Below, in pieces: positions 19,077-35,277 of a stretch of DNA of 35,277 nucleotides. Positions within the stretch are counted from its first letter, which is position 1, and each line of letters starts with the position of its first letter. Source of the DNA: Candidatus Euphemobacter frigidus (GTDB lineage Bacteria > Auribacterota > Erginobacteria > Erginobacterales > Erginobacteraceae); the NCBI GenBank assembly GCA_030765805.1, contig JAVCDH010000105.1, positions 1 through 35,277 on the forward strand, in the 5' to 3' direction. Below the pieces are notes generated by a model. It made no database searches. It worked only from the letters and a program-made list of their open reading frames with translations, and was not told the DNA's origin. The position numbers and the translations under genes were made by a program.

Positions 19077-20789
19077 ATGAATACAGACTCTAAAAATACC
19101 CGGGGCAGAAAAACTTCCCCATCCGATTTCATCCGGGCGATCATTGCCGAGGATATAAAGACAGGAAAGAACGGGGGCCGGGTCGTGACCCGGTTTCCTC
19201 CGGAGCCAAACGGGTACCTCCATATTGGCCACGCCAAGTCGATCTGTCTCAACTTCGGGATCGCCCGGGAGAACAAGGGCGGCGTCTTTCATCTCCGCTT
19301 TGATGATACCAACCCCGCCAAAGAGGAAGCTGAATATATTCGCTCGATCAAGGAAGACGTCCGCTGGCTCGGTTTCGAGTGGGGTGACCATCTTTATTAC
19401 TCGTCGGACTACTTCGATCAACTCTACCGCTACGCAGTCCGATTAATCGAGAACGGTAAAGCGTACGTCTGCAGTTTGAGCCGTCAGGAGATCAGGGAGT
19501 ATCGCGGCACCCTGACCAAGCCGGGCCGGGAGAGCCCTTATCGCGACCGGACGGTCGGGGAGAACCTGGACCTCTTCGAACGGATGCGGGACGGCGAGTT
19601 TGAGGACGGGACCCACGTCCTGCGGGCAAGAATCGACATGGCGTCACCGAACTTGAATATGAGGGATCCGACCATCTACCGAATCCGGCGGCAGTCCCAT
19701 CACCGGACAGGCGATAGGTGGTGTATCTACCCGATGTATGACTTCGCCCATTGCCTCTCCGATTCCATCGAGGGGATTACCCACTCCATCTGCACGCTGG
19801 AATTTGAGAATAACCGCCCGCTCTACGATTGGTTTCTGGACCAACTTAAGGTCCCCTGCCATCCCCGCCAGATCGAGTTCGCCCGGCTTAATCTCAGCCA
19901 TACTGTCTTAAGCAAGCGAAAACTTCTGGAACTGGTGAAGAAAGGCTGCGTCACCGGCTGGGACGATCCGCGGATGCCCACCCTGGCGGGATTGCGCCGC
20001 CGGGGCTACACCCCGGAGTCGATCCGCGCTTTCTGCGAGACCATCGGGGTAGCCAAGAGAGAGAGCGTGGTTGATATCGCGCTCCTCGAGCACTGTCTCC
20101 GGGTCGACTTAAACCGGCGGGCGAAACGGGTGATGGGAGTTCTGCGTCCGCTCCGGGTGGTCATCGAGAACTACCCGGAAGGAAAGGTGGAGGAACTGGA
20201 AGCGATCAACAACCCGGAGGATCCCGGCATGGGCTCACGGAAGATCATCTTCTCGCGGGAACTCTTCATCGAGAAAGATGATTTCCGCGAGGACCCGCCG
20301 AAGAAGTTCTTCCGGCTGGCCCCGGGGAGTGAGGTCCGCCTTAAACACGCTTATTTTATCAAATGCCGGGAGGCAATCAAAGACCCTCAGACCGGAGAAG
20401 TTGTCGAGTTGCGCTGCACGTATGACCCGGAGACGCGGAGCGGTTCATCTCCGGACGGCCGAAAAGTTAAAGGGACTCTCCACTGGGTCTCGGCTCCCCA
20501 CTCGATCGAGACCGAGGTTCGTCTCTACGATACGCTCTTTAAGGACCCGGATCCGGGCGGAGAGGGTGGTGACTTGAAAGCCGCTCTGAACCCTGATTCA
20601 CGAGAGATCCTAACCTCCTGCCGGGTGGAACCGGGTCTGGTCGGAGCCCTCCCCGGCAGCCATTACCAATTTCTGAGAATGGGCTATTTCTGCGTCGATC
20701 CCGACTCCTCCGACGGGAAACTCGTCTTCAACCGAACTGTTCCGCTCCGGGACACCTGGGCCAAGATCGAACGGACGGGAAAGGGTTGA
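19077..20789 (+). CDS. glnS: Glutaminyl-tRNA synthetase
   Basis: 570 aa, slightly longer than the E. coli enzyme. It charges tRNA-Gln with glutamine. Class I signatures: [20 protein letters not shown] (HIGH at 49-52) and the KMSKS-like VLSKRKL (S279-K282), followed by the GlnRS-typical [18 protein letters not shown]. The two C-terminal beta-barrel regions are present and the end ([20 protein letters not shown]) is intact. GlnRS is patchily distributed in bacteria, many of which use GatCAB instead. The gene is single, with a likely terminator at 20859. Confidence 0.96.
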
Positions 20790-21254: not shown

Positions 21255-21360
21255 TAGTAATGAAGTATTGCGATATTCTACAACAACGTCGCTGCGCTTT
21301 AGCACGGTGGCGTTTTTTAATTATTTTTAAAATGATTTAAAATAACTTCAGCAAAAAATA
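21255..21360 (+). repeat. Orphan copy of the paralog 3' flank, with terminator
   Basis: TAATGAAGTATTGCGATATT and the following terminator (CGTCGCTGCG-CTTTAG-CACGGTGGCG then six T, 21287-21318) match the sequence found downstream of each of the four propeller paralogs, including the A/T-rich tail also seen at 26037-26070. No paralog precedes it here, so it looks like the remnant of a lost copy. Confidence 0.75.
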
Positions 21361-21399
21361 ATTCTGTCAAATAATTCTGTCAATTCTGTCAAATAATTC
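21358..21399. repeat. Period-13 A/T-rich repeats before promoter of copy 1
   Basis: AATAATTCTGTCA-type units (two full and one short) end exactly at the -35 box. Copy 3 has five such units; copy 2 has an unrelated 13-nt unit (AGCGAAAAATAAT) in the same place. They may act as an UP-like element and could vary by slippage. Confidence 0.7.
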
Positions 21400-21428
21400 T
21401 TGACTTGTGAAACCGGATGTTGTATATT
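21400..21428 (+). promoter_or_regulatory. Sigma70 promoter of propeller paralog copy 1
   Basis: TTGACT (21400-21405), 17 nt, TATATT (21423-21428). Predicted start near 21435. Confidence 0.75.
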
Positions 21429-21496
21429 GATGATAAATATCAAGGTGTGAGAATGAGAATGAATTCTCCTATACAATTTTCCTTGAAATTTAATTG

Positions 21497-21531
21497 GCCC
21501 GGATAAGGTATCTCCATATCCGGGCTTTTTT
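21497..21531 (+). terminator. Leader terminator/attenuator hairpin, copy 1
   Basis: GCCCGGATA and TATCCGGGC form a perfect 9-bp stem around the loop AGGTATCTCCA, followed by six T. It lies between the promoter and the gene, so transcription would stop after about 97 nt. The loop bases ATCTCC (21510-21515) can pair with the Shine-Dalgarno GGAGGT at 21562-21567 (one G-U pair). The hairpin is identical in copy 2 and one base different in copy 3. Confidence 0.75.
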
Positions 21532-21575
21532 ATGGCTTTTAATTTCAAACCCAGTATTTAGGGAGGTGATTTGAA

Positions 21576-23402
21576 ATGAAGAAGATCGGATTTTGCAGTC
21601 TTTGTATAATAGGGACGATTTTGCTTCTGGTTCAGGTGGTACACGGCGCTGATGGAACCTGGGAGTTCCAGACGGTGGACTCTGAAGGCGATGTGGGTAT
21701 GCATACTTCTTTAGCACTCGGTCCTGATGGATATCCCCATATTAGTTATGTTTTAAACACAACGCCTCAACCTGGAGCTAAAACTGCACTAAAATACGCG
21801 TCTTGGACCGGCACACAGTGGAATATTCAGACTGTGGATCCTGGAGACTATGTAGGGAAGCCTAACTCACTCGCCTTAGACTCTTTAGGGAAGCCTCATA
21901 TAAGCTACTTTGAGGGATCGGACGAAGACCTCAAATACGCCTCCCGGAATGGCGCCAGTTGGAATCTGCAAACTGTAGATTCCGGTGTGGGTACTGGACA
22001 ATATTCCTCTATAGCGCTGGATTCATCGGGTCATCCCCATATAAGCTATAGAGCCCGGCTCGCCGGCCTCAAATATGCCTACTGGGACAGCTCGCAGTGG
22101 AATATTCAGACTGTGGTGACCGTAGAAGTTAGCAGGACGTCACTCGCGCTGGACTCATCAAATTACCCTCATATAAGTTTCGGAAGTTCCTGCAGCCTCA
22201 AATATGCCAGATGGACCGTCTCGACCTGGGATATTCAAACGGCACCAGCCGGTGGCAGTCTCGCCCTCGATACCTCCAATAAGCCCCACATAAGCTATAA
22301 TAAGCTGGGCGATCTTAAATATGCTTCCTGGGACGGCTCGCAGTGGAATACAGAGGTGGTAGATTCCGGAAGTGGTATTATGGAATACTCATCTCTCGCA
22401 CTGGACTCCTCCGGCAAACCGCATATAAGCTATTATGATTATACAAATTATGATCTTAAGTATGCCCATTGGGACGGCTCCCAATGGAATATTCAAACGG
22501 TAGATTGGGAAGGTTATGTAGGCCTACATGGTTCTCTTGCCCTGGATTCTTCCGATAATCCTCGTGTCAGCTACTATAGTTGGACCGATAAAGCTCTCAA
22601 ATACGCCCATTGGGTTCCTTCCCAGCCGGTGACTGATTCGGGAGATTACAATGGCGATGGAACATCAGACATAGCGGTTTTTCGCAAATCAAGAGAAAGA
22701 TGGTTTATCAGGGGTATTACCCGCCTTTACTTCGGTACTTCTTCCGACATACCCGTCTCCGGTGATTACGACAACGACGGAACCACTGATATCGGCATCT
22801 TCAGGGACTCTTCCGGTCTCTGGACGATCAGAAATGTCACCAGAGCTTATTTTGGTACTTCTTCCGACATCCCTGCCCCCGGTGACTACGACGGAGATGG
22901 CTATTGCGATATGGCCATATTCAGAGAGGTGAGCGGTCTCTGGGCGATCAGGAATTTAACACGCGCCTACTTCGGAACCTCAAGCGACCGGCCGATTCCC
23001 GGTTATTACACCGGGAGCAGGGCTAAGGACATAGCTATCTTCCGGGAAAGCTCAGGACTCTGGGCTTTGAGAGACCTCAGCCGGATATATTTTGGAAGAT
23101 CCAGAGACCAGCCGATTCTGGCAGATTACGACGGAGACGGCACCTGTGAAGTTGGTATCTTCCGACCCGCCTCGGGTCTCTGGGCGATCAATGATGTCAC
23201 ACGAGCTTATTTCGGCCAATCTTCTGATCTTTTGGCATCGGGAGATTATGATGGGGATGGGATAGATGATATAGGCATCTTTCGGGATTCAAGCGGATTG
23301 TGGGCTCTGCGAGGATTCACCAGGGTTTATTTCGGGACGAGTGGAGATGTTCCAGTATCAGGGCGAGTATGCAATCCGGTAACAACGACACCAAGTCCAT
23401 AG
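21576..23402 (+). CDS. Secreted double-propeller protein, paralog copy 1
   Basis: 608 aa. The GGGAGGTGAT site is optimally spaced from the ATG. Signal peptide 1-25 (IGFCSLCIIGTILLLVQVVH). Residues about 27-350 have seven repeats of about 45 aa with SLALDSSGxPHISY and LKYAxWDGSQWNIQTVD, consistent with a seven-bladed propeller. Residues about 352-590 have six FG-GAP/VCBS-type repeats (GDYDGDGTxDIAIFR, SGLWAIRxVTRxYFG); DxDGDG loops probably bind calcium, but the fourth is GYYTGSRAKD and lacks the ligands. The protein stops abruptly after CNPVTTTPSP with TAG TAA, where related proteins would continue into a P/T linker. It has no anchor domain. Probably secreted; ligand unknown. Confidence 0.85.
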   Translation: MKKIGFCSLCIIGTILLLVQVVHGADGTWEFQTVDSEGDVGMHTSLALGPDGYPHISYVLNTTPQPGAKTALKYASWTGTQWNIQTVDPGDYVGKPNSLALDSLGKPHISYFEGSDEDLKYASRNGASWNLQTVDSGVGTGQYSSIALDSSGHPHISYRARLAGLKYAYWDSSQWNIQTVVTVEVSRTSLALDSSNYPHISFGSSCSLKYARWTVSTWDIQTAPAGGSLALDTSNKPHISYNKLGDLKYASWDGSQWNTEVVDSGSGIMEYSSLALDSSGKPHISYYDYTNYDLKYAHWDGSQWNIQTVDWEGYVGLHGSLALDSSDNPRVSYYSWTDKALKYAHWVPSQPVTDSGDYNGDGTSDIAVFRKSRERWFIRGITRLYFGTSSDIPVSGDYDNDGTTDIGIFRDSSGLWTIRNVTRAYFGTSSDIPAPGDYDGDGYCDMAIFREVSGLWAIRNLTRAYFGTSSDRPIPGYYTGSRAKDIAIFRESSGLWALRDLSRIYFGRSRDQPILADYDGDGTCEVGIFRPASGLWAINDVTRAYFGQSSDLLASGDYDGDGIDDIGIFRDSSGLWALRGFTRVYFGTSGDVPVSGRVCNPVTTTPSP

Positions 23403-23482
23403 TAAAGTGGGAGTAATGGAGTAGTGGAGGAATAGAGGAATGAAGTATTGGAGTAATGAAGCATTGAGATATTCTATAACAG
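23403..23482 (+). repeat. GGAGTAATGA-type minisatellite in 3' flank, copy 1
   Basis: Imperfect 8-9-nt units (GGAGTAATGGAGTAGTGGAG and similar). Related tracts follow copies 2 (25945-25985), 3 (28128-28165) and 4. Confidence 0.6.
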
Positions 23483-23515
23483 CGTCGCTACGTCTTAGCG
23501 TAGCGACGTTTTTTT
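23483..23515 (+). terminator. Terminator of copy 1
   Basis: CGTCGCTACG-TCTTAG-CGTAGCGACG, a perfect 10-bp stem, then seven T. Confidence 0.9.
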
Positions 23516-23556
23516 AACAACTTCGCTGAAATCTCAAGCCAAAGATTTATCATCAA

Positions 23557-23865
23557 GTGATACAAAAAACAAAAGTAAGCTCAGTCGCCCTATCGGGATT
23601 AGCAATTGTCCTGTTTTTAATCTCCTTCCCTGCCTTCCCTCTCGATCTTGAGTGGTCGTGCAAAGAGCACGCAAGGACATTATCGGGGGGTGAGGGGTTG
23701 GAAACTCGTATAAATAAAACGCCAATCTATCAGAGAACTTTTACCATATCAGGTATGTCAAATAACGACGTTATTGTGAACACCACTGCGTTTTGGGATT
23801 TAGCTCTGTCCAGGGGAGGCCTCTGCCCTGGAATTTCCACTTGCCGCGAAACCTTTAATGGGTGA
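23557..23865 (+). pseudogene. Truncated 5' end of a paralog of the giant gene
   Basis: 102 codons from a GTG. The first 30 residues nearly match the signal peptide of the giant gene at 30630 ([25 protein letters not shown]), and similarity continues more loosely (LEWSCKEHARTLSGGEGLET against [24 protein letters not shown] at the same place). It then ends at TGA with none of the later domains. The upstream 40 nt are also shared with the giant gene. This is most simply the stump of a second giant gene that once followed copy 1. Confidence 0.7.
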
Positions 23866-23938
23866 CCCCTATTTTGACTGATAAATTACTTGACAGTATA
23901 ATAGTGAAATAGCGAAAAATAATAGCGAAAAATAATTC

Positions 23939-23967
23939 TTGACTTGTGGAAACGGGTGTCGTATACA
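23939..23967 (+). promoter_or_regulatory. Sigma70 promoter of copy 2
   Basis: TTGACT (23939-23944), 17 nt, TATACA (23962-23967). It is preceded by tandem 13-nt AGCGAAAAATAAT units. Confidence 0.7.
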
Positions 23968-24037
23968 TTAGAATGTCGTAGACATAGAGTATAGAAAAAA
24001 TGAATTCTCATATAAAATTTTTCTGGAAATTTAATTA

Positions 24038-24072
24038 GCCCGGATAAGGTATCTCCATATCCGGGCTTTTTT
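24038..24072 (+). terminator. Leader terminator/attenuator hairpin, copy 2
   Basis: The stem, loop and six-T run are the same as in copy 1, although the sequence between promoter and hairpin has diverged. The predicted leader RNA is again about 98 nt. The Shine-Dalgarno GGGAGGTGAC follows. Confidence 0.75.
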
Positions 24073-24116
24073 ATGGTTTCAAGTTTTAAACCCAGTATTT
24101 AGGGAGGTGACTTAAG

Positions 24117-25940
24117 ATGAAGAAGATCGGATTTTTTAGTATTTGTATAATTGGTATGAGTCTGGTCCTGTTTCACATAGTCTACGGCGCTGATGGAACC
24201 TGGGAGATTCAAACGGTGGACTCCGCGGGAGACGTGGGCCAGGATACTTCTTTAGCCCTCGGTCCTGATGGATATCCCCATATCAGCTATATTTTATACA
24301 CAACGCCTCAACCTGGAGCTAAATCTGCACTAAAATACGCATTTTGGAACGGCTCGCAATGGAATATCCAGACCGTAGAACAAGGAGGGCATTTAGGCAT
24401 TCCTAACTCACTCGCCTTAGACTCATCAGGAAATCCTCATATAAGCTACTTTGAGGGATCGGACGAAGACCTCAAATACGCCTCCCGGAATGGCGCCAGT
24501 TGGAATCTGCAAACTGTAGATTCCGGTGTGGGTACTGGACAATATTCCTCTATAGCGCTGGATTCATCGGGTCATCCCCATATAAGCTATAGAGGCCGGC
24601 TCGCCGGCCTGAAATACGCCCACTGGACCGGGTCACAGTGGAATATTCAAACGGTGGTGACCGTAGAAGTTAGCAGGACGTCACTCGCGCTGGACTCATC
24701 AAATTACCCTCATATAAGTTTCGGAAGTTCCTGCAGCCTCAAATATGCCAGATGGAACGGTTCGACCTGGGATATTCAAACGGCACCAGCCGGTGGCAGT
24801 CTCGCCCTCGACTCCTCCGATCAGCCCCACATAAGCTATAATAAGCTGGGCGATCTCAAATATGCCTCGCGGTCCGGCTCGCAGTGGAATATTCAGGTAG
24901 TGGATTCGGGAGGAGTTGGGGAATATTCATCTCTCGCACTGGACTCCTCCGGTAATCCTCATATAAGCTACTATGATTATACTAGTTACAATCTTAAATA
25001 TGCTTACCGGAACGGTTCCCAATGGAATGTTCAAACAGTGGATTCAGAAGGGAGCGTTGGTCATTTCTGTTCCCTGGCTCTTGACTCCTTTAATAGTCCT
25101 CGTATCAGCTATTATAGTGGGCCCGATAGAAATCTTAAATACGCTCACTGGATCCCATCACAGCCGGTGATTGATTCCGGGGATTACGACGGAGATGGAA
25201 CCTCAGACATTGCCGTCTTCCGGAAATCCTCGGGGGGATGGTTTGTCAGGGGTGTAAGCCATCTTTATTTCGGCACACAGGATGACGTGCCGGTATCTGG
25301 AGACTACAACAATGACGGCACTACTGACATAAGTATCTACCGAGGAAGCTCCGGCCTCTGGGCCATCCGGGGAGTCACCCGCGCCTACTTCGGTTCTCCT
25401 TCCGATTACCCCCTTCCCGGAGATTACGACGGAGACGGCTATTGCGATATGGCTATATTCAGGGAGGTAAGCGGACTCTGGGCAATCAGGAATTTAACAC
25501 GCACTTACTTCGGAACCTCAGGCGACCGGCCTGTTCCCGGTTATTACACCGGGAGCAGGGCTAAGGATATAGCTATCTTCCGGGAAAGCTCAGGACTCTG
25601 GGCCTTGAGAGACCTCAGCCGGATATATTTTGGGAGATCCAGAGACCAGCCGATTCTGGCAGATTACGACGGCGACGGCACCTGTGAAGTTGGTATCTTC
25701 CGACCCTCCTCAGGTCTCTGGGCAATCAGGGGCGTTAGCAGAACATATTTTGGCGATTCTTCAGATAGCCTTATCCCAGCAGACTATGATGGAGATGGGA
25801 TAGCTGATATATCTATCTTCAGAGATTCTTCCGGTTTGTGGGCTCTCAGGGGACTCACCAGAATCTATTTCGGGACAAGCGGTGATGTTCCGGTATCAGG
25901 GCGAGTATGCAATCCGGTAACAACGACACCAAGTCCATAG
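24117..25940 (+). CDS. Secreted double-propeller protein, paralog copy 2
   Basis: 607 aa, same architecture as copy 1: signal peptide with its own sequence (FFSICIIGMSLVLFHIVYG), seven SLALDSS/PHISY repeats and six VCBS-type repeats, again with the degenerate fourth loop (GYYTGSRAKD). Long tracts are identical at DNA level to copy 1 (for example 24662-24755 against 22122-22215), while the fifth to sixth VCBS repeats (WAIRGVSRTYFGDSSDSLIP) match copies 3 and 4 instead. Stop TAG TAA. Its own promoter and attenuator-type leader are present. Confidence 0.85.
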   Translation: MKKIGFFSICIIGMSLVLFHIVYGADGTWEIQTVDSAGDVGQDTSLALGPDGYPHISYILYTTPQPGAKSALKYAFWNGSQWNIQTVEQGGHLGIPNSLALDSSGNPHISYFEGSDEDLKYASRNGASWNLQTVDSGVGTGQYSSIALDSSGHPHISYRGRLAGLKYAHWTGSQWNIQTVVTVEVSRTSLALDSSNYPHISFGSSCSLKYARWNGSTWDIQTAPAGGSLALDSSDQPHISYNKLGDLKYASRSGSQWNIQVVDSGGVGEYSSLALDSSGNPHISYYDYTSYNLKYAYRNGSQWNVQTVDSEGSVGHFCSLALDSFNSPRISYYSGPDRNLKYAHWIPSQPVIDSGDYDGDGTSDIAVFRKSSGGWFVRGVSHLYFGTQDDVPVSGDYNNDGTTDISIYRGSSGLWAIRGVTRAYFGSPSDYPLPGDYDGDGYCDMAIFREVSGLWAIRNLTRTYFGTSGDRPVPGYYTGSRAKDIAIFRESSGLWALRDLSRIYFGRSRDQPILADYDGDGTCEVGIFRPSSGLWAIRGVSRTYFGDSSDSLIPADYDGDGIADISIFRDSSGLWALRGLTRIYFGTSGDVPVSGRVCNPVTTTPSP

Positions 25941-26004
25941 TAAAGAGGGAGTGATGGAGTGATGAAATATTGGAGTAATGAAGCATTACGATATTCTACA
26001 GCTA

Positions 26005-26036
26005 CGTCGCTACGCCTTAGCATGGCAGCGTTTTTT
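26005..26036 (+). terminator. Weakened terminator of copy 2
   Basis: CGTCGCTACG-CCTTAG-CATGGCAGCG then six T. Compared with copy 1 the stem has two C-A mismatches and G-U pairs, so readthrough towards copy 3 is possible. Confidence 0.7.
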
Positions 26037-26076
26037 AATTATTTTTAAAATGATTTAAAATGACTTCAGCAAAAAA

Positions 26077-26146
26077 AATAATTCTGTTAAATAATTCTGT
26101 TAAATTCTGTTAAATAATTCTGTCAAATAATTCTGTCAAATAATTC
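26077..26146. repeat. Expanded period-13 repeats upstream of copy 3
   Basis: Five units of AATAATTCTGTTA/AATAATTCTGTCA (one short), compared with about three before copy 1. They are followed directly by AATAATTCAAGG, where copy 1 has its promoter. Confidence 0.75.
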
Positions 26147-26201
26147 AAGGTGCGAGAATGAAAATGAATTCTCCTATACAATTTTCCTTGAAATTTAATT
26201 G

Positions 26202-26236
26202 GCCCGGATAAGGTATCTCCATATCCGGGTTTTTTT
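26202..26236 (+). terminator. Leader terminator/attenuator hairpin, copy 3
   Basis: GCCCGGATA / TATCCGGGT with the same AGGTATCTCCA loop and seven T. The closing pair is G-U. No sigma70 promoter remains directly upstream. Confidence 0.7.
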
Positions 26237-26280
26237 ATGGCTTTTAATTTCAAACCCAGTATTTAGGGAGGTGATTTGAA

Positions 26281-28122
26281 ATGAAGAAGATCGGATTTTG
26301 CAGTCTTTGTATAATAGGGACGATTTTGCTTCTGGTTCAGGTGGTACACGGCGCGGATGGAACCTGGGAGTTCCAGACAGTGGACTCTGAAGGTGATGTG
26401 GGTAGATATACTTCTTTAGCGCTCGGTCCCGATGGATATCCCCACATTAGTTATGTTTTAAACACAACGCCTCAACCTTTAGCTAAAACTGCACTAAAAT
26501 ACGCGTCTTGGACCGGCACACAGTGGAATATTCAGACTGTGGACCCCGGAGACTATGTAGGGAAGCCTAACTCACTCGCCTTAGACTCTTTAGGGAATCC
26601 TCATATGAGCTACTTTGAGGGATCGGGCGAAGACCTCAAATACGCCTCCTGGGATGGCGCTAGTTGGAATCTGCAAACTGTAGATTCCGGTGTGGGTACT
26701 GGACAATATTCCTCTCTAGCGCTGGATTCATCGGATCATCCCCATATAAGTTATAGAGGCCGGCTCGCCGGCCTTAAATATGCATTTTTGACCGGCTCTC
26801 AATGGAATATTCAAACTGTGGTGACTGGAGCAGCTGTATATACGTCACTCGCGCTGGACTCTTCAGGAAATCCGCATATAAGCTATTTGGGTGGGAATGG
26901 TTGCGTCAATTATGCTTTCCGGGACGGCTCGCAGTGGAACATTCAGACGATAGTGAATGAAACGGGCACATATATCTCTCTTGCACTCGACTCATCCGGT
27001 CATCCCCATATAAGTTATACTGAGCTGGGTGATCTCAAATATGCCTCTCGGGACGGCTCGCAGTGGGATATTCAGGTAGTGGATTCGGGAGGTGGAGTTG
27101 GGGATTATTCATCTCTCGCACTGGACTCCTCCGGTAGACCGCATATAAGCTATTATGATTATATAAATTACGATCTTAAATATGCCCACCGGAACGGTTC
27201 CCAATGGAATGTTCAAACAGTGGATTCAGAAGGGACTGTAGGCAAACATACTTCTTTGGCGTTGGATACAGAGGGAAATCCGCGTATAAGCTATCGCGAT
27301 TCGACCAACAAAAGCCTTAAATACGCCCACTGGATACCATCCCAGCCGGTAATTGATTCCGGTGATTATAACGGGGATGGAACCTCAGACATTGCCGTCT
27401 TCCGGATATCATCGGGGGGATGGTTTGTCCGGGGCGTAAGCCACCTCTATTTCGGTACACAGGATGACGTGCCGGTATCTGGAGACTACAACAATGACGG
27501 CACTACTGACATAAGTATCTACCGAGGAAGCTCAGGCCTCTGGGCGATTAAAGATGTTACCAGGGCCTACTTCGGCGCAGCCTCCGATATTTCTGTCCCC
27601 GGAGATTATGACGGAGACGGCTATTGCGATATGGCCATATTCAGGGAGGCCAGTGCTCTCTGGGCGATAAGAAATATTACACGGGCTTATTTTGGCAGCT
27701 CGAATGATCGGCCGGTTCCCGGTTATTACTCAGGGAGCAAGTCTAAAGATATAGCTATCTTCCGGGAGAGCTCAGGCCTCTGGGCTTTGAGAGACCTCAG
27801 CCGGATATATTTTGGAAGATCCAGAGACCAGCCGATTCTGGCAGATTACGACGGAGACGGCACCTGTGAAGTTGGTATCTTCCGACCCTCCTCAGGTCTC
27901 TGGGCAATCAGGGGCGTTAGCAGAACATATTTTGGCGATTCTTCAGATAGCCTTATCCCGGCAGACTACGATGGTGATGGTATAGCTGACATATCTATCT
28001 TCAGAGATTCTTCCGGTTTGTGGGCTCTGCGAGGGGTCAGCAGAGTCTATTTCGGAAGGAGGGGGGATATTCCAGTATCAGGGCGAGTATGCAATCCGGT
28101 AACAACGACGCCGAGTCCATAG
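26281..28122 (+). CDS. Secreted double-propeller protein, paralog copy 3
   Basis: 613 aa with the same layout. The first roughly 120 codons are almost identical to copy 1, including the signal peptide, whereas propeller repeats 4-5 (GGNGCVNYAF, ETGTYISLALDSSGHPHISY) are unique to it. The first two VCBS repeats match copy 2 (VRGVSHLYFGTQDDVPVSGD) and the last three match copies 2 and 4. The fourth VCBS loop is GYYSGSKSKD, again without calcium ligands. Its leader lacks the 42 nt that hold the promoter in copy 1, so expression may depend on readthrough from copy 2. Stop TAG TAA. Confidence 0.85.
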   Translation: MKKIGFCSLCIIGTILLLVQVVHGADGTWEFQTVDSEGDVGRYTSLALGPDGYPHISYVLNTTPQPLAKTALKYASWTGTQWNIQTVDPGDYVGKPNSLALDSLGNPHMSYFEGSGEDLKYASWDGASWNLQTVDSGVGTGQYSSLALDSSDHPHISYRGRLAGLKYAFLTGSQWNIQTVVTGAAVYTSLALDSSGNPHISYLGGNGCVNYAFRDGSQWNIQTIVNETGTYISLALDSSGHPHISYTELGDLKYASRDGSQWDIQVVDSGGGVGDYSSLALDSSGRPHISYYDYINYDLKYAHRNGSQWNVQTVDSEGTVGKHTSLALDTEGNPRISYRDSTNKSLKYAHWIPSQPVIDSGDYNGDGTSDIAVFRISSGGWFVRGVSHLYFGTQDDVPVSGDYNNDGTTDISIYRGSSGLWAIKDVTRAYFGAASDISVPGDYDGDGYCDMAIFREASALWAIRNITRAYFGSSNDRPVPGYYSGSKSKDIAIFRESSGLWALRDLSRIYFGRSRDQPILADYDGDGTCEVGIFRPSSGLWAIRGVSRTYFGDSSDSLIPADYDGDGIADISIFRDSSGLWALRGVSRVYFGRRGDIPVSGRVCNPVTTTPSP

Positions 28123-28284
28123 TAACGAGGGAGTGATGAACTGATAAAGGAATGGAGTAATGAAGTATTGCAATATTGTGGTATTCATCCCGCCAAGAGG
28201 TGGGACGCTTAGTAACGTCGCTATGCCTTAGCGTGACGGCGTTTTTTAAACAATTTAAACAATTTTTTAAACAATTTTACTTAC
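28123..28284 (+). terminator. 3' flank and terminator of copy 3
   Basis: The minisatellite GTGATGAACTGATAAAGGAA is followed by a TCCCGCC-AAGA-GGTGGGA hairpin (28187-28204) and then the terminator CGTCGCTATG-CCTTAG-CGTGACGGCG with six T (28216-28247). Confidence 0.7.
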
Positions 28285-28313
28285 TTGCAATTTGAAGAGT
28301 ATCATGTTATTGT
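28285..28313 (+). promoter_or_regulatory. Putative promoter of copy 4
   Basis: TTGCAA (28285-28290), 17 nt, TATTGT (28308-28313). The leader of about 245 nt is unrelated to those of copies 1-3 and has no attenuator hairpin. Confidence 0.4.
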
Positions 28314-28552
28314 TAATACGAAGAGGGTAGCAGAAAGAAAGGAAATGAACATTGGTTCTGATGAAAATTTTTTTCTGCTTCAATATCGCGCCTGCCCCGA
28401 ACTGCTCCGGGATGTAAGCAGAAGGCGCTCCTACAGGGATTGTTGGAATTTCCCCGATAGTGATCGGGGCAGGCGAGGCAGGAGGTTAGCCTGGATAGAT
28501 TGGTTCTGTCCAAGTTTTTGTGTACATTAGTTATAGAAATCTAAGAATTTCA
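28314..28552. other. Unique leader region of copy 4 with dispersed repeat
   Basis: No gene seen. It contains a CCCCGAT-AGTG-ATCGGGG hairpin (28452-28469) within a CCTGCCCCGAACTGCTCCGG-type dispersed repeat segment. It replaces the leader and attenuator of the other copies. Confidence 0.5.
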
Positions 28553-28566
28553 GGAGGTGATTTGTG

Positions 28567-30420
28567 ATGAAGAAAGTTAAGTATTTATATTTCTGTCTCA
28601 TTTGTGCGGTAGTCAGTGGCTTGGTTTTATTGCCGATCTCTACAGTTCACGCTGCGCAGGGAAGCTGGAATATTCAGACGGTGGATTCGGAAGGGGATGT
28701 TGGTCAGCATACTTCTTTAGCACTCGGTCCCGACGGCTCTCCCCACATCAGTTATATTTATTTAACGCCTCAACCTGGAGCTAACAGTTTTCTAAAATAT
28801 GCCTTTTGGACCGGCTCACAGTGGAATATCCAGACCGTAAAACCAGGGGATTACTCTGGGAAGTTTAACTCCCTCGCCTTAGACTCGTCAGTGAATCCGC
28901 ATATAAGCTACTATAAAACACAGCAAACAAATCTCAATTATACCTATTGGAACGGCTCCACCTGGAATATTCAAACAGTGGATTCTTACGGCACTGTGGG
29001 ACAAGACAGCTCTCTGGCACTGGATTCATCGAATCATCCCCATATAAGTTATAAAGGCCAGTATCTCTCCATCGGCCTTAAATATGCTCACTGGAACGGT
29101 TCACAGTGGAATATTCAGACGGTGGCGCCTGAAATAGGTAGCTATACATCACTCGCACTGGACTCCTCCGATCACCCTCATATAAGTTACGGAAATTCCA
29201 ACGGTCTCGGATATGCCGTCTGGAACGGCTCGACATGGAATATTCAAACGGTAGATAGTGGTGGTGGATATTGCAGTCTCGCGCTCGACTCCTCCGATCA
29301 GCCCCATATAGCCTATTCTGTTCTGGGTGGCCTCAAATATGCCTCCTGGGACGGCTCGGAGTGGAATATAGAGGTGGTGTACTCCGAGAGTGTACACGCA
29401 GAATATTGCTCACTCGCACTGGACTCCTCCGATAGACCGCATATAAGCTACTATGATCCGTCAAATGAGGATCTTAAATATGCTTACTATGACGGGTCCC
29501 GGTGGAATATACAGACAGTGGACTCTGAAGGGAGGGTTGGACTTTTCAGTTCCCTGGCTCTCGACTCCTTCAATAATCCCCGGATCAGCTACTATCGTGG
29601 GGGCAATAAAGACCTCAAATACGCCCACTGGATACCATTACAGCCGCTAACCGACTCCGGTGATTACGACGGGGACGGAACGTCCGACATCGCCGTTTTT
29701 AGGGACAGCTCAGGCTTATGGGCAATCAGGGGAATAACACGGGCTTATTTTGGTACTTCCTCCTATATCCCGGTCTCGGGTGATTACAACAATAATGGCA
29801 CCACCGATATAGGGATCTACCGGAAGAGCTCAGGCCTCTGGGCGATTAAAGATGTTACCAGGGCCTACTTCGGAACTTCTTCTGACATTCCTATTCCCGG
29901 GGATTACGACGGGAACGGATATTGCGACCTCGCCGTATTCCGGGAAGATAACAGTCTCTGGGCGATCAGGAATTTAACACGCACCTACTTCGGAACCTCA
30001 GGCGATCGGCCGGTTCCTGGTTATTACACCGGGAACAGGGCTAAGGATATAGCTATCTTCCGGGAAAACTCAGGACTCTGGGCCATGAGAGACCTCAGCC
30101 GGATATATTTTGGAAGATCCAGAGACCAACCGATTCTGGCAGATTATGATGGGGACGGCACCTGTGAAGTTGGTATCTTCCGACCCACCTCAGGTCTCTG
30201 GGCAATCAGGGGCGTTAGTAGAACATATTTTGGCGATTCTTCAGATAGCCTTATCCCGGCAGACTATGATGGAGATGGGATAGCTGATATAGCTATCTTC
30301 AGAGGGACTTCAGGCTTGTGGGCTCTACGAGGGGTCAGCAGGGTTTATTTCGGTACAAGCGGAGATGTTCCGGTATCAGGGCGAGTATGCAATCCGGTAA
30401 CAACGACGCCGAGTCCATAG
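28567..30420 (+). CDS. Secreted double-propeller protein, paralog copy 4 (most diverged)
   Basis: 617 aa. By homology the start is the ATG at 28567, not the GTG at 28564: GGAGGT is then spaced exactly as in copies 1-3. The signal peptide is different (MKKVKYLYFCLICAVVSGLV). The seven propeller repeats are clear but diverged. The VCBS half again shares the block RDLSRIYFGRSRDQPILADY with all copies and GVSRTYFGDSSDSLIPADYD with copies 2 and 3. Stop TAG TAA after CNPVTTTPSP. The first half seems older or exchanged, while the 3' end is homogenised. Confidence 0.85.
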   Translation: MKKVKYLYFCLICAVVSGLVLLPISTVHAAQGSWNIQTVDSEGDVGQHTSLALGPDGSPHISYIYLTPQPGANSFLKYAFWTGSQWNIQTVKPGDYSGKFNSLALDSSVNPHISYYKTQQTNLNYTYWNGSTWNIQTVDSYGTVGQDSSLALDSSNHPHISYKGQYLSIGLKYAHWNGSQWNIQTVAPEIGSYTSLALDSSDHPHISYGNSNGLGYAVWNGSTWNIQTVDSGGGYCSLALDSSDQPHIAYSVLGGLKYASWDGSEWNIEVVYSESVHAEYCSLALDSSDRPHISYYDPSNEDLKYAYYDGSRWNIQTVDSEGRVGLFSSLALDSFNNPRISYYRGGNKDLKYAHWIPLQPLTDSGDYDGDGTSDIAVFRDSSGLWAIRGITRAYFGTSSYIPVSGDYNNNGTTDIGIYRKSSGLWAIKDVTRAYFGTSSDIPIPGDYDGNGYCDLAVFREDNSLWAIRNLTRTYFGTSGDRPVPGYYTGNRAKDIAIFRENSGLWAMRDLSRIYFGRSRDQPILADYDGDGTCEVGIFRPTSGLWAIRGVSRTYFGDSSDSLIPADYDGDGIADIAIFRGTSGLWALRGVSRVYFGTSGDVPVSGRVCNPVTTTPSP

Positions 30421-30424
30421 TAAA

Positions 30425-30537
30425 AAGGAGTGACGAAGTGATGGCGGAACGGAGTGATGGAGTGATGAAATAATGGAGTGATGGAGTGATGAAATAATGG
30501 AGTTATGGAGTGATGGAGTATTGAAGTAATGAAGCAT
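30425..30537 (+). repeat. ATGGAGTGA minisatellite after copy 4
   Basis: At least eight imperfect units of GGAGTGAT/GAAATAAT type. Many read ATG GAG TGA, with TGATG overlaps between units. The longest of the four 3'-flank tracts. Confidence 0.75.
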
Positions 30538-30555
30538 TGCGATATTCTACAACAG

Positions 30556-30587
30556 CGTCGCTACGCCTTGGCGTGGCGGCGTTTTTT
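30556..30587 (+). terminator. Terminator of copy 4
   Basis: CGTCGCTACG-CCTTGG-CGTGGCGGCG (10 pairs, two G-U) then six T. Confidence 0.85.
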
Positions 30588-30629
30588 AAACAATATTGCT
30601 AAAATCTCAAGCTAAAGATTTATCATCAA

Positions 30630-33600
30630 GTGATACAAAAAACAAAAGTAAGCTCAGTCTTTCCGGCAGGATTAGCAATTGTCCTGTTTTTAATCTCCTC
30701 ACCTGCCTTTCCTCTCCAACTTGAGTGGTCGGGCAAAGAGCACGCGAAGACGGTTTCGGGTGGAGCCGGGATGGAGAGTCGAAAGTTAGCGGTTTTTACG
30801 CTGGAATATAGTTCGCGCGACGGACTAATGTCAGCGGGCGACAATGTATTAGCTTCATATGCATTCTGGGACGTGAGGCGGTACAATGATGATGCGCAAG
30901 ATATAAAAATGGGTTATGATGGCAACCCTGCGTCAAATTACACTGATGTATTCGGGATAGTATCTCCATTACACGCCCCCAATTATGGCGCCAAAGCGTA
31001 CTGGGCCAATGTATATGGAATAGTGGAAGGGGCAAGGCAGTGGTGGAACCCTGTTACACCGGTTATCACTACGGCGGACTGGCCGGGAGGGGCGCAAGAT
31101 AATGGTTTGAGCATCATAGCCGCGGTTTCTAATCCAAACTATCCTTATCAGGAGATACAGATAAAAAATACTGCCGGCTGTACAAGACACACAGATGATA
31201 CACCACACTATACTCCCGCATATTCTTTCCAGATTACGCCGTCTATTCGCGATAGGGATGGAATTTTAACACTGATCATAGGCGGTGCAAGCGGCGAGCC
31301 GCCGGAACACTATGATCAGCTATGGATACTTACGAGAACGGAGCCTCCTACGGGAAATTTATGGGATTATATCGATGAACCTTGGAAGGAGGATATATTT
31401 GATGCGGGGGATAATGGTGCTACTCAGCAGCAATATGTTAGTCCTCCACTAGGAGAAGTTGATTGTATAAAAGTACCACCGGGACATAGCTATGTCAGCT
31501 TCCAGATTTGGGGGGAGCATGACAGTCTTATCCTTTCCGGAGCTTCTTTTGAAATTCCCACAAAGCATCCGAACATATATGTAAATAATCAGACCGGTGT
31601 TGAAGGGACTGAACTGCAATTTTCAGTAACCGCCGATGACCCTGAGGGGGATATCGTTACTATTTCAGCTATTTCGTTGCCGGCGTGGCTGAAAGAGATT
31701 GATAACAATAGCCCGGCTCAATTTGCCGTAATGACTCTGGAAGGCACATCAGGTGACAATGATGATTGGACGGCGATTTTTGAAGCAAAAGATAACCAAC
31801 CTGTACCCGGAACTGCCAGAAAACCTATAACCATCACAATTGAAAATGCACCTCCAGTTATAACGAATTTCTCCAGTGACAGTCCTGTGGGAAGCTGCAA
31901 GCATGTGGGAGAGTGGGTTAAATTCACGGGAACATTTACCGACCCGGGCTGGCTGGATACACATATTGTGGAATTAGACTTCGGCGATACTCAGACCAGC
32001 AACCTGTGCAGTATTCCCGGTCTCTGGGTAGTAAGAAATGTATCCAGATTATATTTCGGCGGCGGGTGCGATATTCCCGTTCCGGGCGATTATGACGGGG
32101 ACACAACGACGGAAGCGGCTATCTTCAAACCTCCTGATAGATTGTGGGAGATCAGGGGCGTTACCCAATTCAATTTTGGAGTCATCCACGATAAACCTGT
32201 TCCGGAGGATTATAATGGAGATGGGAAGGATGATGTCGCGGTTTTTCGCCCCGGTACCGGCCTCTGGGCGGCGAGGGGCGTTACCAGAATTTATTACGGA
32301 ACATATGGTGACTTGCCGGTGCCGGCGGACTACAACGGGAACGGGAAGGCGGACATAGCGGTATTCAGGCCGAGTAATAATCGTTGGTACATCAAAAATG
32401 TGACCAGAGCTTATTTCGGCAACTCCACCGATATCCGTGTTCCCGCAGACTATAACGGCGATGGGAAAGATGATATCGCGATTTTCCGCCCCGGTACCGG
32501 CCTCTGGGCTGTGCGGGGAGTCACCAGGGTTTATTACGGAAGAGACGGCGACATCCCTCTCCCGGCGGACTATAATGGAAACGGCCGGGCGGATATAGGC
32601 TTCTTCAGGTCCACGACAGGGCTATGGGCCATCAGAGGGATAACCCAATCTTTTTTTGGAGAAGGTGGAGATAGTCCCAGCCCTGACGATTACAACGGCG
32701 ACGGGATAGATGATATCGCCATCTTTCGTTCAGCAGTTTACTACGAGAACCTTGATCCGCCTGACGCAAAACAATGCAGTTTTAAGGTAATGCATTTTTA
32801 TGATAATGCGGACCAATATGGAGTTACGGCAACCGTGACCGATGACGACGGTGGAGGAGATACTGCTCAGACCACTGTGGAGATATGTGGGACTTGCACG
32901 CCAACTCCTAAGCCCTCAGCGACACCGACCTCTACGGCGACGCCTAAGCCGACGCCTCCACCGAGCGTGACACCTACTCCGTCTGTCATCCCTACTGTAA
33001 CTCCTACGGCCACGCCGACGCCTTCGGTGACGCCCACCCCCACACCCACGATCGGCCCCCATGTTATGATCGACCAGGTTTACGGAAGCAAAATACTTGA
33101 CTACGTGGTGCTCTACAACTCCACTGCCGGCAGCATCGATCTCGGGGCCGGGGGATACGTCCTCAACAACCAGGACAACCCTGACCCCACCGCCGCCTCC
33201 GACGACAACTTATTCACCTCCTGCGACACCATCCCCGCCACCTCCTACTTCCTCGTTGCTTCTACCTATTATATCGCCCCCGATCCGCCTTACCGTCCCG
33301 ACGGCGTAGTCGCCGACGTGGTCATGAATATTAACGTCATCAAGGGGAGCAATGCCGGCCACTCCTGGGTCCAGCTCACCGACAGTGCCGTTGCGGAGGT
33401 CGACGCCCTGGGGTGGGCCGCCGGCGGCGGCATGCCCACACACTACGAGGGGACCGCGATCAACGCCGATATGGCCACCAATAAAGCCTTCTTCCGCCAC
33501 GGTGTCCATGACGATACTAATAATAATACCGCCGACTTCTACCAGGACACCTTCTCCCCTTACTCCTCCGGCCAGATCCCCTACGATGGGACCGGCTCCT

Positions 33601-35277
33601 GGTTCAGCCACACTCTCTGGCCGACCTTCGACGAGCAGACCCAGGAGTGGACCCGGACCTGCGGTGGCTGCAGCTACTACTACCAGGCCATCAACGAGGG
33701 TCATCCGCCGAGCGATGGCAACTACGTGCTCGAGAGCTACGATGGCAGCCCCACTGAGGATGCCTGGTTCGGCATCGCCGACTTCAGCCAGAACACCGGT
33801 GTCGACTGCTGGGGCCGGGTCTTCGTCGAGGTGGTAGCCTGGGGGTACCAATCTTCCACCACGGGCCAAAAGTGGTCAAAGGTCTACCTCAAGTCCGGGT
33901 CGACGATCACGTCCCGAGATGTTGGCTTCGCCCAGGACTCCAGCGCCTCTCCCTCTTTCAGCCTGGTCAACAGTAAACCCTGGAACCGGGACCCTGATAC
34001 CAACTTCGCCTGGGACTCGGACTCTCTCGATAACCTGGTCATCGGCATCAGGAACGACGATAATAATGTCAAGATAGCTATATCCCAGTTATACGCCCTG
34101 GTCTGGTACACCGGGGTGCCGCCGCCGCCGCCGACTCCTACGGCCACTACAACACCGCCGACTCCCACACCAACACCCAGCGTGACACCGACACCGTCGC
34201 CCACACCGACGGCCTACGTCCCGTCTCCCACGCCGACGCCCAGCGTGACACCAACTCCAACTCCTTCGGTTACTCCTACGCCTTCAGTAACACCTACACC
34301 GACGCCAAGCATCCCCCCGACGCCGGAGAAGACTCCTCCTCCTTCGCCATCGCCCACAGCGACTCCGATAACCCCAACCCCGACACCCAGCAGCACATCT
34401 ACACCAACACCAAGTACGACTCCCACGCCGAGTGTGACACCGACGCCCACGCCGAGTATGACTCCGACGCCGGAGATCTGCACGCGGCTGGACGAAGGCT
34501 TTGACGACTTCCAGATCGGGACCCGACCGAGCGGGTGGACGTTTACTAACTGTAACGCCAACACCGATACTTATACCACCGCCGGAGACTATGGCCATGC
34601 GCTCCCCTCGATCAAACTCGATGCCACCGGTGATCTAATTGAGAGCACCTCCTTTGCCGATGGCGAATGGCTGAAGTTCTGGACTAAGGGAATAGGCACC
34701 GATACCACCAGCAGCCTGCTAGTAGAGGAATATTACACCTCCTGGCAGGAGGTCACCGATATCAACAATCTGCCCACTGCCAGTGGGGTTATCTATGGAC
34801 CCCTGAGCCTGGATGCGAGCACCACCCGTCTCAGGTTCAGCTATACCAAAAGTGTGGGGGACCTGGCCTTTGACGATGTGATGGTGAACTGCCTGATTAC
34901 TCCGACTCCCACGCCCACTCCGGAGACGACCCCCACGCCGACACCCTCAGTGACGCCCACTCCAGAGATAACTCCCACCACGACGCCGAGTGTAACCCCG
35001 ACTCCATCGGTAACCCCGACACCGGAGACCACGCCCACTCCGACACCCTCGGTAACTCCCACGCCGATCACTCCCACGCCCACAGCCTCGGTTACCCCCA
35101 CAGCCACCCCCACTGCTTACATTCCAACCCCCACCCCAACGCCGGAGATCTGCACCCGCCTGGACGAAGGCTTTGACGACTTCCAGATCGGGACCCGACC
35201 GAGCGGGTGGACGTTTACTAACTGTAACGCCAACACCGATACTTATACCACCGCCGGAGACTATGGCCATGCGCTCC
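30630..35277 (+). CDS. Giant chimeric modular surface protein, runs off the right edge
   Basis: The frame is open from the GTG at 30630 to the edge (over 1,549 codons; read by hand). Signal peptide 1-29. Unrecognised N-terminal domain (about 30-312). Ig/cadherin-like domain (about 315-407, [18 protein letters not shown]). PKD domain split into 408-457 ([15 protein letters not shown]) and about 710-754 ([15 protein letters not shown]) by a six-repeat VCBS cassette (458-706; GDYDGD and [15 protein letters not shown] loops). P/T linker (about 756-808). Lamin-tail-like domain (about 810-960, [16 protein letters not shown]). Beta-rich domain (about 985-1163). P/T linker. Jelly-roll-like domain (about 1285-1420, [16 protein letters not shown]). 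P/T linker. Then a near-identical second copy of that domain. Probably a long surface adhesin or stalk-like protein. Confidence 0.85.
32001..32752 (+). repeat. VCBS cassette inserted in the PKD domain, flanked by AACCT
   Basis: AACCT at 32001-32005 and again at 32748-32752 flank a 747-nt, in-frame (249-codon) block of six DxDGD-type repeats. Removing it rejoins a standard PKD sequence. The block starts mid-repeat ([14 protein letters not shown]) and ends after AIFRSA, i.e. circularly permuted relative to the tandem paralogs. Confidence 0.6.
34472..35277 (+). repeat. 672-nt in-frame tandem repeat (domain plus P/T linker)
   Basis: The sequence from GGAGATCTGCAC at 34472 returns at 35144, an offset of 672 nt (224 codons). 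The second copy matches the first with only about two changes over the visible 134 nt. The array is cut by the window end. Confidence 0.85.

Follow-up and report, generated by a model that had tools for sequence, protein, structure and literature searches.

Four adjacent genes for secreted proteins form a patchwork at the DNA level, and we consider it very probable that they arose by tandem duplication and were then reshaped by repeated non-reciprocal recombination among the copies, with no dedicated machinery taking part. The window analysed is the entire contig C14, 35,277 nucleotides in length, and belongs to a genome of 2.26 Mb in 116 contigs that is 94.7% complete. Four head-to-tail paralogs occupy positions 21576-30420, between a glutaminyl-tRNA synthetase (GlnRS) gene (19077-20789, named from its own sequence) and a large incomplete gene, here called gene 5:

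21576-23402, + strand: copy 1, signal peptide, seven PHISY repeats and six FG-GAP/VCBS repeats, 608 aa
24117-25940, + strand: copy 2, architecture as copy 1, 607 aa
26281-28122, + strand: copy 3, architecture as copy 1, 613 aa; promoter region deleted
28564-30420, + strand: copy 4, the most divergent of the set; neither its signal peptide nor its upstream region is related to those of the other copies
30630-35277, + strand: gene 5, a large secreted protein cut by the contig end; its full start follows copy 4

An earlier sequence-only reading had described four adjacent genes of a single architecture, and this is what we find: each encodes a signal peptide followed by seven PHISY-type and six FG-GAP/VCBS repeats, and all four reading frames are intact and full-length, with a ribosome-binding site in front of each. 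The start of copy 4 is probably the ATG at 28567, judged by its spacing to the ribosome-binding site. The Pfam family FG-GAP scores above cut-off in all four proteins and FG-GAP_3 in copies 1-3 only, and the PHISY-type repeats match Pfam BNR_4 / DUF7253.

Mosaic structure of the array

Overall DNA identity among the four paralogs is 75-84%, but divergence is far from uniform: in 90-nt windows pairwise identity ranges from 51% to 100%, stepping between neighbouring windows from 51-70% up to 96-100%, and the nearest partner of a given copy shifts along the gene. The particular resemblances pointed out earlier are all present. Copies 1 and 3 are 92-100% identical at their 5′ ends over about 160 codons; copies 1 and 2 match exactly at 22113-22215, a little beyond the 22122-22215 first reported; VCBS repeats 5-6 of copies 2, 3 and 4 are mutually 89-99% identical, with copy 1 at only 68-70%; and the RDLSRIYFGRSRDQPILADY block and the 3′ end are common to all four copies, at the DNA level included. 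The longest exact tracts are the following:

21526-21649, + strand: 124 bp, copy 1 = copy 3 (26231-26354), from the leader through and across the start codon
21894-22053, + strand: 160 bp, copy 1 = copy 2 (24435-24594)
22113-22215, + strand: 103 bp, copy 1 = copy 2 (24654-24756)
23058-23168, + strand: 111 bp, copy 1 = copy 3 (27778-27888), including the block common to all four
25674-25777, + strand: 104 bp, copy 2 = copy 3 (27856-27959), VCBS repeat 5

Two further exact tracts of 51-53 bp span stop codons, so the patchwork extends into noncoding DNA. Polarising the direction of the tracts would take an outgroup array.

The clustering of shared sites is well beyond chance. At 120 sites the copies divide two against two, and the three possible quartet trees are backed almost equally, by 38, 40 and 42 sites; support switches between trees 42 times along the gene, compared with 79.9±5.1 in shuffled orders and a minimum of 61 in 10,000 shuffles. 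Runs of agreeing polymorphic sites reach 54, 48, 38 and 36, lengths not equalled in a global permutation (p 0/2000). Within a single gene pair synonymous divergence climbs from 0 to above 1 (saturation) between neighbouring windows. Whole-gene dN/dS is 0.19-0.27 and no window has dN clearly above dS; purifying selection dominates these genes. Because exact tracts cross start and stop codons and dS runs from 0 to saturation, selection at the protein level is not the cause of the mosaic. Sliding identity, clustering tests, exact tracts and steps in dS thus bear out the repeated gene conversion that had been suggested.

Flanking sequences and the origin of the mosaic

The intergenic regions carry a set of recurring elements, listed here in order:

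21256-21320, + strand: terminator-region remnant 5′ of copy 1, 88% identical to 30525-30589
21356-21400, + strand: 13-bp repeat AAATAATTCTGTC upstream of copy 1
21400-21428, + strand: promoter-like TTGACT-17-TATATT upstream of copy 1
21497-21533, + strand: leader terminator-like hairpin GCCCGGATA..TATCCGGGC plus T run; also upstream of copies 2 and 3
23481-23516, + strand: intrinsic terminator 3′ of copy 1, with equivalents after copies 2-4
23541-23865, + strand: truncated gene-5 start between copies 1 and 2, with a 46-bp exact match to 30614-30659
23874-23902, + strand: second promoter-like match, TTGACT-17-TATAAT, upstream of copy 2
23939-23967, + strand: promoter-like TTGACT-17-TATACA upstream of copy 2, homologous to the copy 1 promoter as read from the sequence and its alignment
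26076-26146 (region 26076-26160), + strand: expanded 13-bp repeat AAATAATTCTGTY in place of the copy 3 -35/-10
30427-30538, + strand: 8-bp GGAGTRAT repeats 3′ of copy 4

The leader hairpin, a stem of 10 bp followed by a T run about 50 nt 5′ of the start codon, is the same in copies 1 and 2, and in copy 3 a G-U pair makes it weaker; the leader of copy 4 is unrelated. Of the proposal that these leaders are attenuators, the strong terminator-like hairpin stands, conserved in copies 1-3 only, but no alternative antiterminator fold is conserved, the candidate stems of the copy 1 and copy 3 leaders not being retained in copy 2. An Rfam search of the whole window gave no match, to a riboswitch or known attenuator family or to any other, and a search of the rest of the genome showed the leader to be confined to the array.

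Slippage-prone repeats, also pointed out earlier, are present in both the 8-bp and 13-bp forms. GGAGTRAT-type repeats lie 3′ of every copy, shorter or degenerate after copies 1-3 (degenerate after 1 and 3), and 14 of the 18 matches to the pattern in the genome fall inside the array. In copy 3 the 13-bp repeats abut the leader directly, the -35/-10 elements being gone and the leader, ribosome-binding site and reading frame kept. The promoter was probably lost through a deletion between AAATAATTC and AAATATC, possibly a repeat-mediated one. We also note that 61-71 bp of the stretch at 23799-23869 match, at 79-84%, sequences 5′ of module genes on contigs C7 and C102, with a shorter match on C91, and constitute a short dispersed repeat.

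Remnants had likewise been described near the array, and the truncated start of gene 5 does sit after copy 1; the piece of terminator region 5′ of copy 1 points to a further unit that has been lost or was copied only in part. Both fit duplication and unequal exchange. Gene 5 has features of its own: a six-repeat FG-GAP block (window 32007-32760) lies inside a PKD domain, which scores 37.9 bits against PKD_4 with its flanks joined compared with 17.2 and 22.3 for the halves, and this block begins and ends in mid-repeat and is apparently circularly permuted. An exact 118-bp repeat occurs at 34488-34605 and 35160-35277, its second copy finishing at the contig end, which indicates that gene 5 is incomplete because the assembly broke within a duplicated domain.

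Very probably a unit of leader, gene and terminator was duplicated to yield the tandem array, after which repeated non-reciprocal homologous recombination (gene conversion) made the copies alike piece by piece; unequal crossing-over may also have been involved, leaving the truncated gene-5 fragment. General homologous recombination between near neighbours is the probable cause. The four diverged copies would provide either dosage or a range of ligands. The array is monophyletic in a tree of the C-terminal six-repeat modules (support 100/99). Parts of it are now less than 75% identical, too diverged for easy pairing today, and conversion must therefore have been seeded from conserved patches or have occurred earlier. 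The loss of the copy 3 promoter is unexpected for a simple dosage array and counts against this explanation.

The distribution of exchange elsewhere in the genome bears on the mechanism. We aligned 33 modules of the genome and examined each pair for local excess identity, using a null that takes account of how conserved each column is and how far the pair has diverged. At p<0.01 an excess is seen in all six array pairs, in 2 of 9 other same-contig pairs, and in 2 of 513 unlinked pairs. The top non-array pair consists of two adjacent genes on contig C83, with 91-94% identity in their last 200-250 bp and 54-82% elsewhere. Exchange thus tracks proximity, as general homologous recombination would give. 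Conversion between the unlinked modules on C7 and C50 was also considered, on the basis of a 71-bp exact patch (p=7.6e-4); it fails correction over the 513 pairs. In a separate case, a protein on contig C31 (L091:14361-16715) carries two complete six-repeat modules in tandem, whose central parts are 90-96% identical and whose ends are 66-81% identical, a pattern that suggests conversion within one gene.

The sequence-only reading had favoured a surface-variation system, in which copies 1-4 would act as donors and acceptors, copy 3, lacking a promoter, would be kept in silent reserve, and the repeats would modulate expression; we regard this as improbable. The genes are indeed mosaic, 13-bp and 8-bp slippage-prone repeats flank them, and copy 3 retains everything from leader to reading frame without its -35/-10; this last is the only feature that leans towards a variation system, and it keeps the idea weakly alive. 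Against it, there is no silent-cassette/expression-site layout: every reading frame is full-length, consensus-like promoters precede copies 1 and 2, and the dN/dS values are those of constrained genes. A similar patch is seen in the adjacent paralogs on C83. Neither of the two relatives whose GlnRS locus was read has an array adjoining that gene, in a genome set that comprises one genome per species and in which the nearest relatives belong to other genera. A diversity-generating retroelement is likewise rejected, as the genome, at its 94.7% completeness, contains no match to the reverse transcriptase family RVT_1 (PF00078), which the same search recovered in three well-known control genomes.

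Misassembly of the array is unlikely, and it is very doubtful that the patchwork is an artefact of joining short reads that came from different paralogs or strains. The assembly is in 116 contigs, the end of this one falls exactly inside the 118-bp repeat, and exact matches of 160 and 124 bp might lead an assembly astray; but these two, which alone among the array repeats exceed 118 bp, are nested and not interleaved, which would leave a single linear order, most tracts are shorter, all the reading frames are intact, and the tracts differ in age (0-8% divergence). Equally poor in prospect is the import of whole or partial copies by homologous exchange with related strains, which would likewise yield patches of different ages; each tract has its exact counterpart in a sibling copy of this very array, and donors within the genome suffice. 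Functional constraint alone, with important repeats conserved and identity uneven as a result, is refuted by the synonymous-site pattern and deserves almost no credence. The shared block does hold residues of the FG-GAP motif that the module family as a whole conserves, but within tracts the noncoding flanks and the synonymous sites match just as closely, and the pair that is alike changes along the gene.

The two repeat domains and a family-specific C-terminal module

AlphaFold2 models the N-terminal domain confidently as a seven-bladed propeller (pLDDT about 85, mostly 75-94) nearest to lectin folds, the best Foldseek matches being the PLL/PHL seven-bladed lectins of Photorhabdus (E about 1e-15); a PDB sequence search with the array profile gave no match. 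The array proteins are likely to bind an extracellular or surface glycan or polymer. A PHISY plus VCBS protein is also encoded in the genome of another genus (L109:7926-9800), where the VCBS module groups with different modules, and the pairing of the two domains therefore probably arose more than once.

The C-terminal six-repeat module matters more than the array itself, and is a lead worth following. It was found only in the bacterial family of the source genome, within the phylum as sampled: the count is 38 modules for the source genome and, for three genomes of the same family, 28, at least 54 and at least 59, whereas the search of 40 further genomes of the phylum (44 searched in all) gave none. 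Among 28 non-array module proteins read from the source genome, the module ends within 12 residues of the stop codon in 26, a simple rule detects a signal-like N-terminus in 24, and 22 terminate in P-x-[TS]-[RKH], typically GDIPVTR-COOH. The array proteins constitute a minority class, in which the module runs on as SGRVCNPVT and a short TP-rich tail. The N-terminal partners in 34 scanned proteins include C1, C39 and S8 peptidases, GDSL lipases, GH64, exo/endonuclease-phosphatase, a metallo-beta-lactamase-fold protein (ComEC-like by NCBIfam) and other propellers; examples of module-capped proteins are L096:4910-6745, L098:7216-9540 and L104:4563-8006. Three unlinked genes with unrelated N-termini share 74-82% DNA identity in the module, beginning at the module boundary. 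Modules of different genera interleave in the module tree, which implies that much of the expansion predates the genera.

Models of the C-terminal module are unreliable, with pLDDT values of 34 (with a broader alignment) and about 40; that it is a propeller is suggested by its repeat count and family, and it is probably Ca2+-binding. Its likeliest role would be that of a cap shared by many C-termini, serving in sorting, anchoring or retention, or stability. We tentatively raise the further possibility, which we think less likely than not, that the module may be an undescribed lineage-specific tag, directing or anchoring dozens of secreted proteins that are otherwise unrelated and spreading between genes as a whole unit, as a propeller-based counterpart of the T9SS CTD or PEP-CTERM. 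In the open-access literature we found no paper on a family-specific C-terminal module of this kind. That one bacterial family caps proteases, lipases, nucleases, glucanases and binding proteins with the same domain and a near-constant C-terminus is noteworthy, and should the module prove to be a tag for sorting or anchoring, a route of protein display not yet described would come to light.

Comparison with known systems

The module resembles the VCBS/FG-GAP (integrin-like) propellers in its DxDxDG-type motifs and its six repeats, six being the median blade number for highly repetitive VCBS propellers (PMC8023676, PMC9218822); it differs in its short 40-aa repeats and in having been passed as whole six-repeat units to many C-termini, and is known from sequence. 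The N-terminal domain as modelled shares the fold of the Photorhabdus PLL/PHL lectins at a sequence identity of about 15%.

Segmental gene conversion among clustered copies is shared with the Borrelia vls locus, where a single expression site is accompanied by silent cassettes that are often broken (PMC11499132); here copy 3 has a ribosome-binding site and no promoter. The array differs in having neither a single expression site with truncated silent cassettes nor the diversifying selection that mark vls/pilE-type systems, its genes being under purifying selection, and its copies are about 75-84% identical compared with about 90% in vls (PMC11499132). It shows clearly, and in a form that can be quantified, how gene conversion shapes a family of secreted proteins, here in a genome known as an assembly only, and cautions against taking mosaicism alone as antigenic variation.

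The array is a new example of a known process, one that is ordinary for tandem copies. A close parallel is with the adjacent PE_PGRS17 and PE_PGRS18 duplicates of Mycobacterium tuberculosis, which have undergone gene conversion (PMC1762029): in both cases sequence has been transferred locally between tandem bacterial paralogs, proximity and identity being enough with no dedicated system. That example concerns two copies with strain data, whereas here there are four copies, of a different protein family, in one genome.
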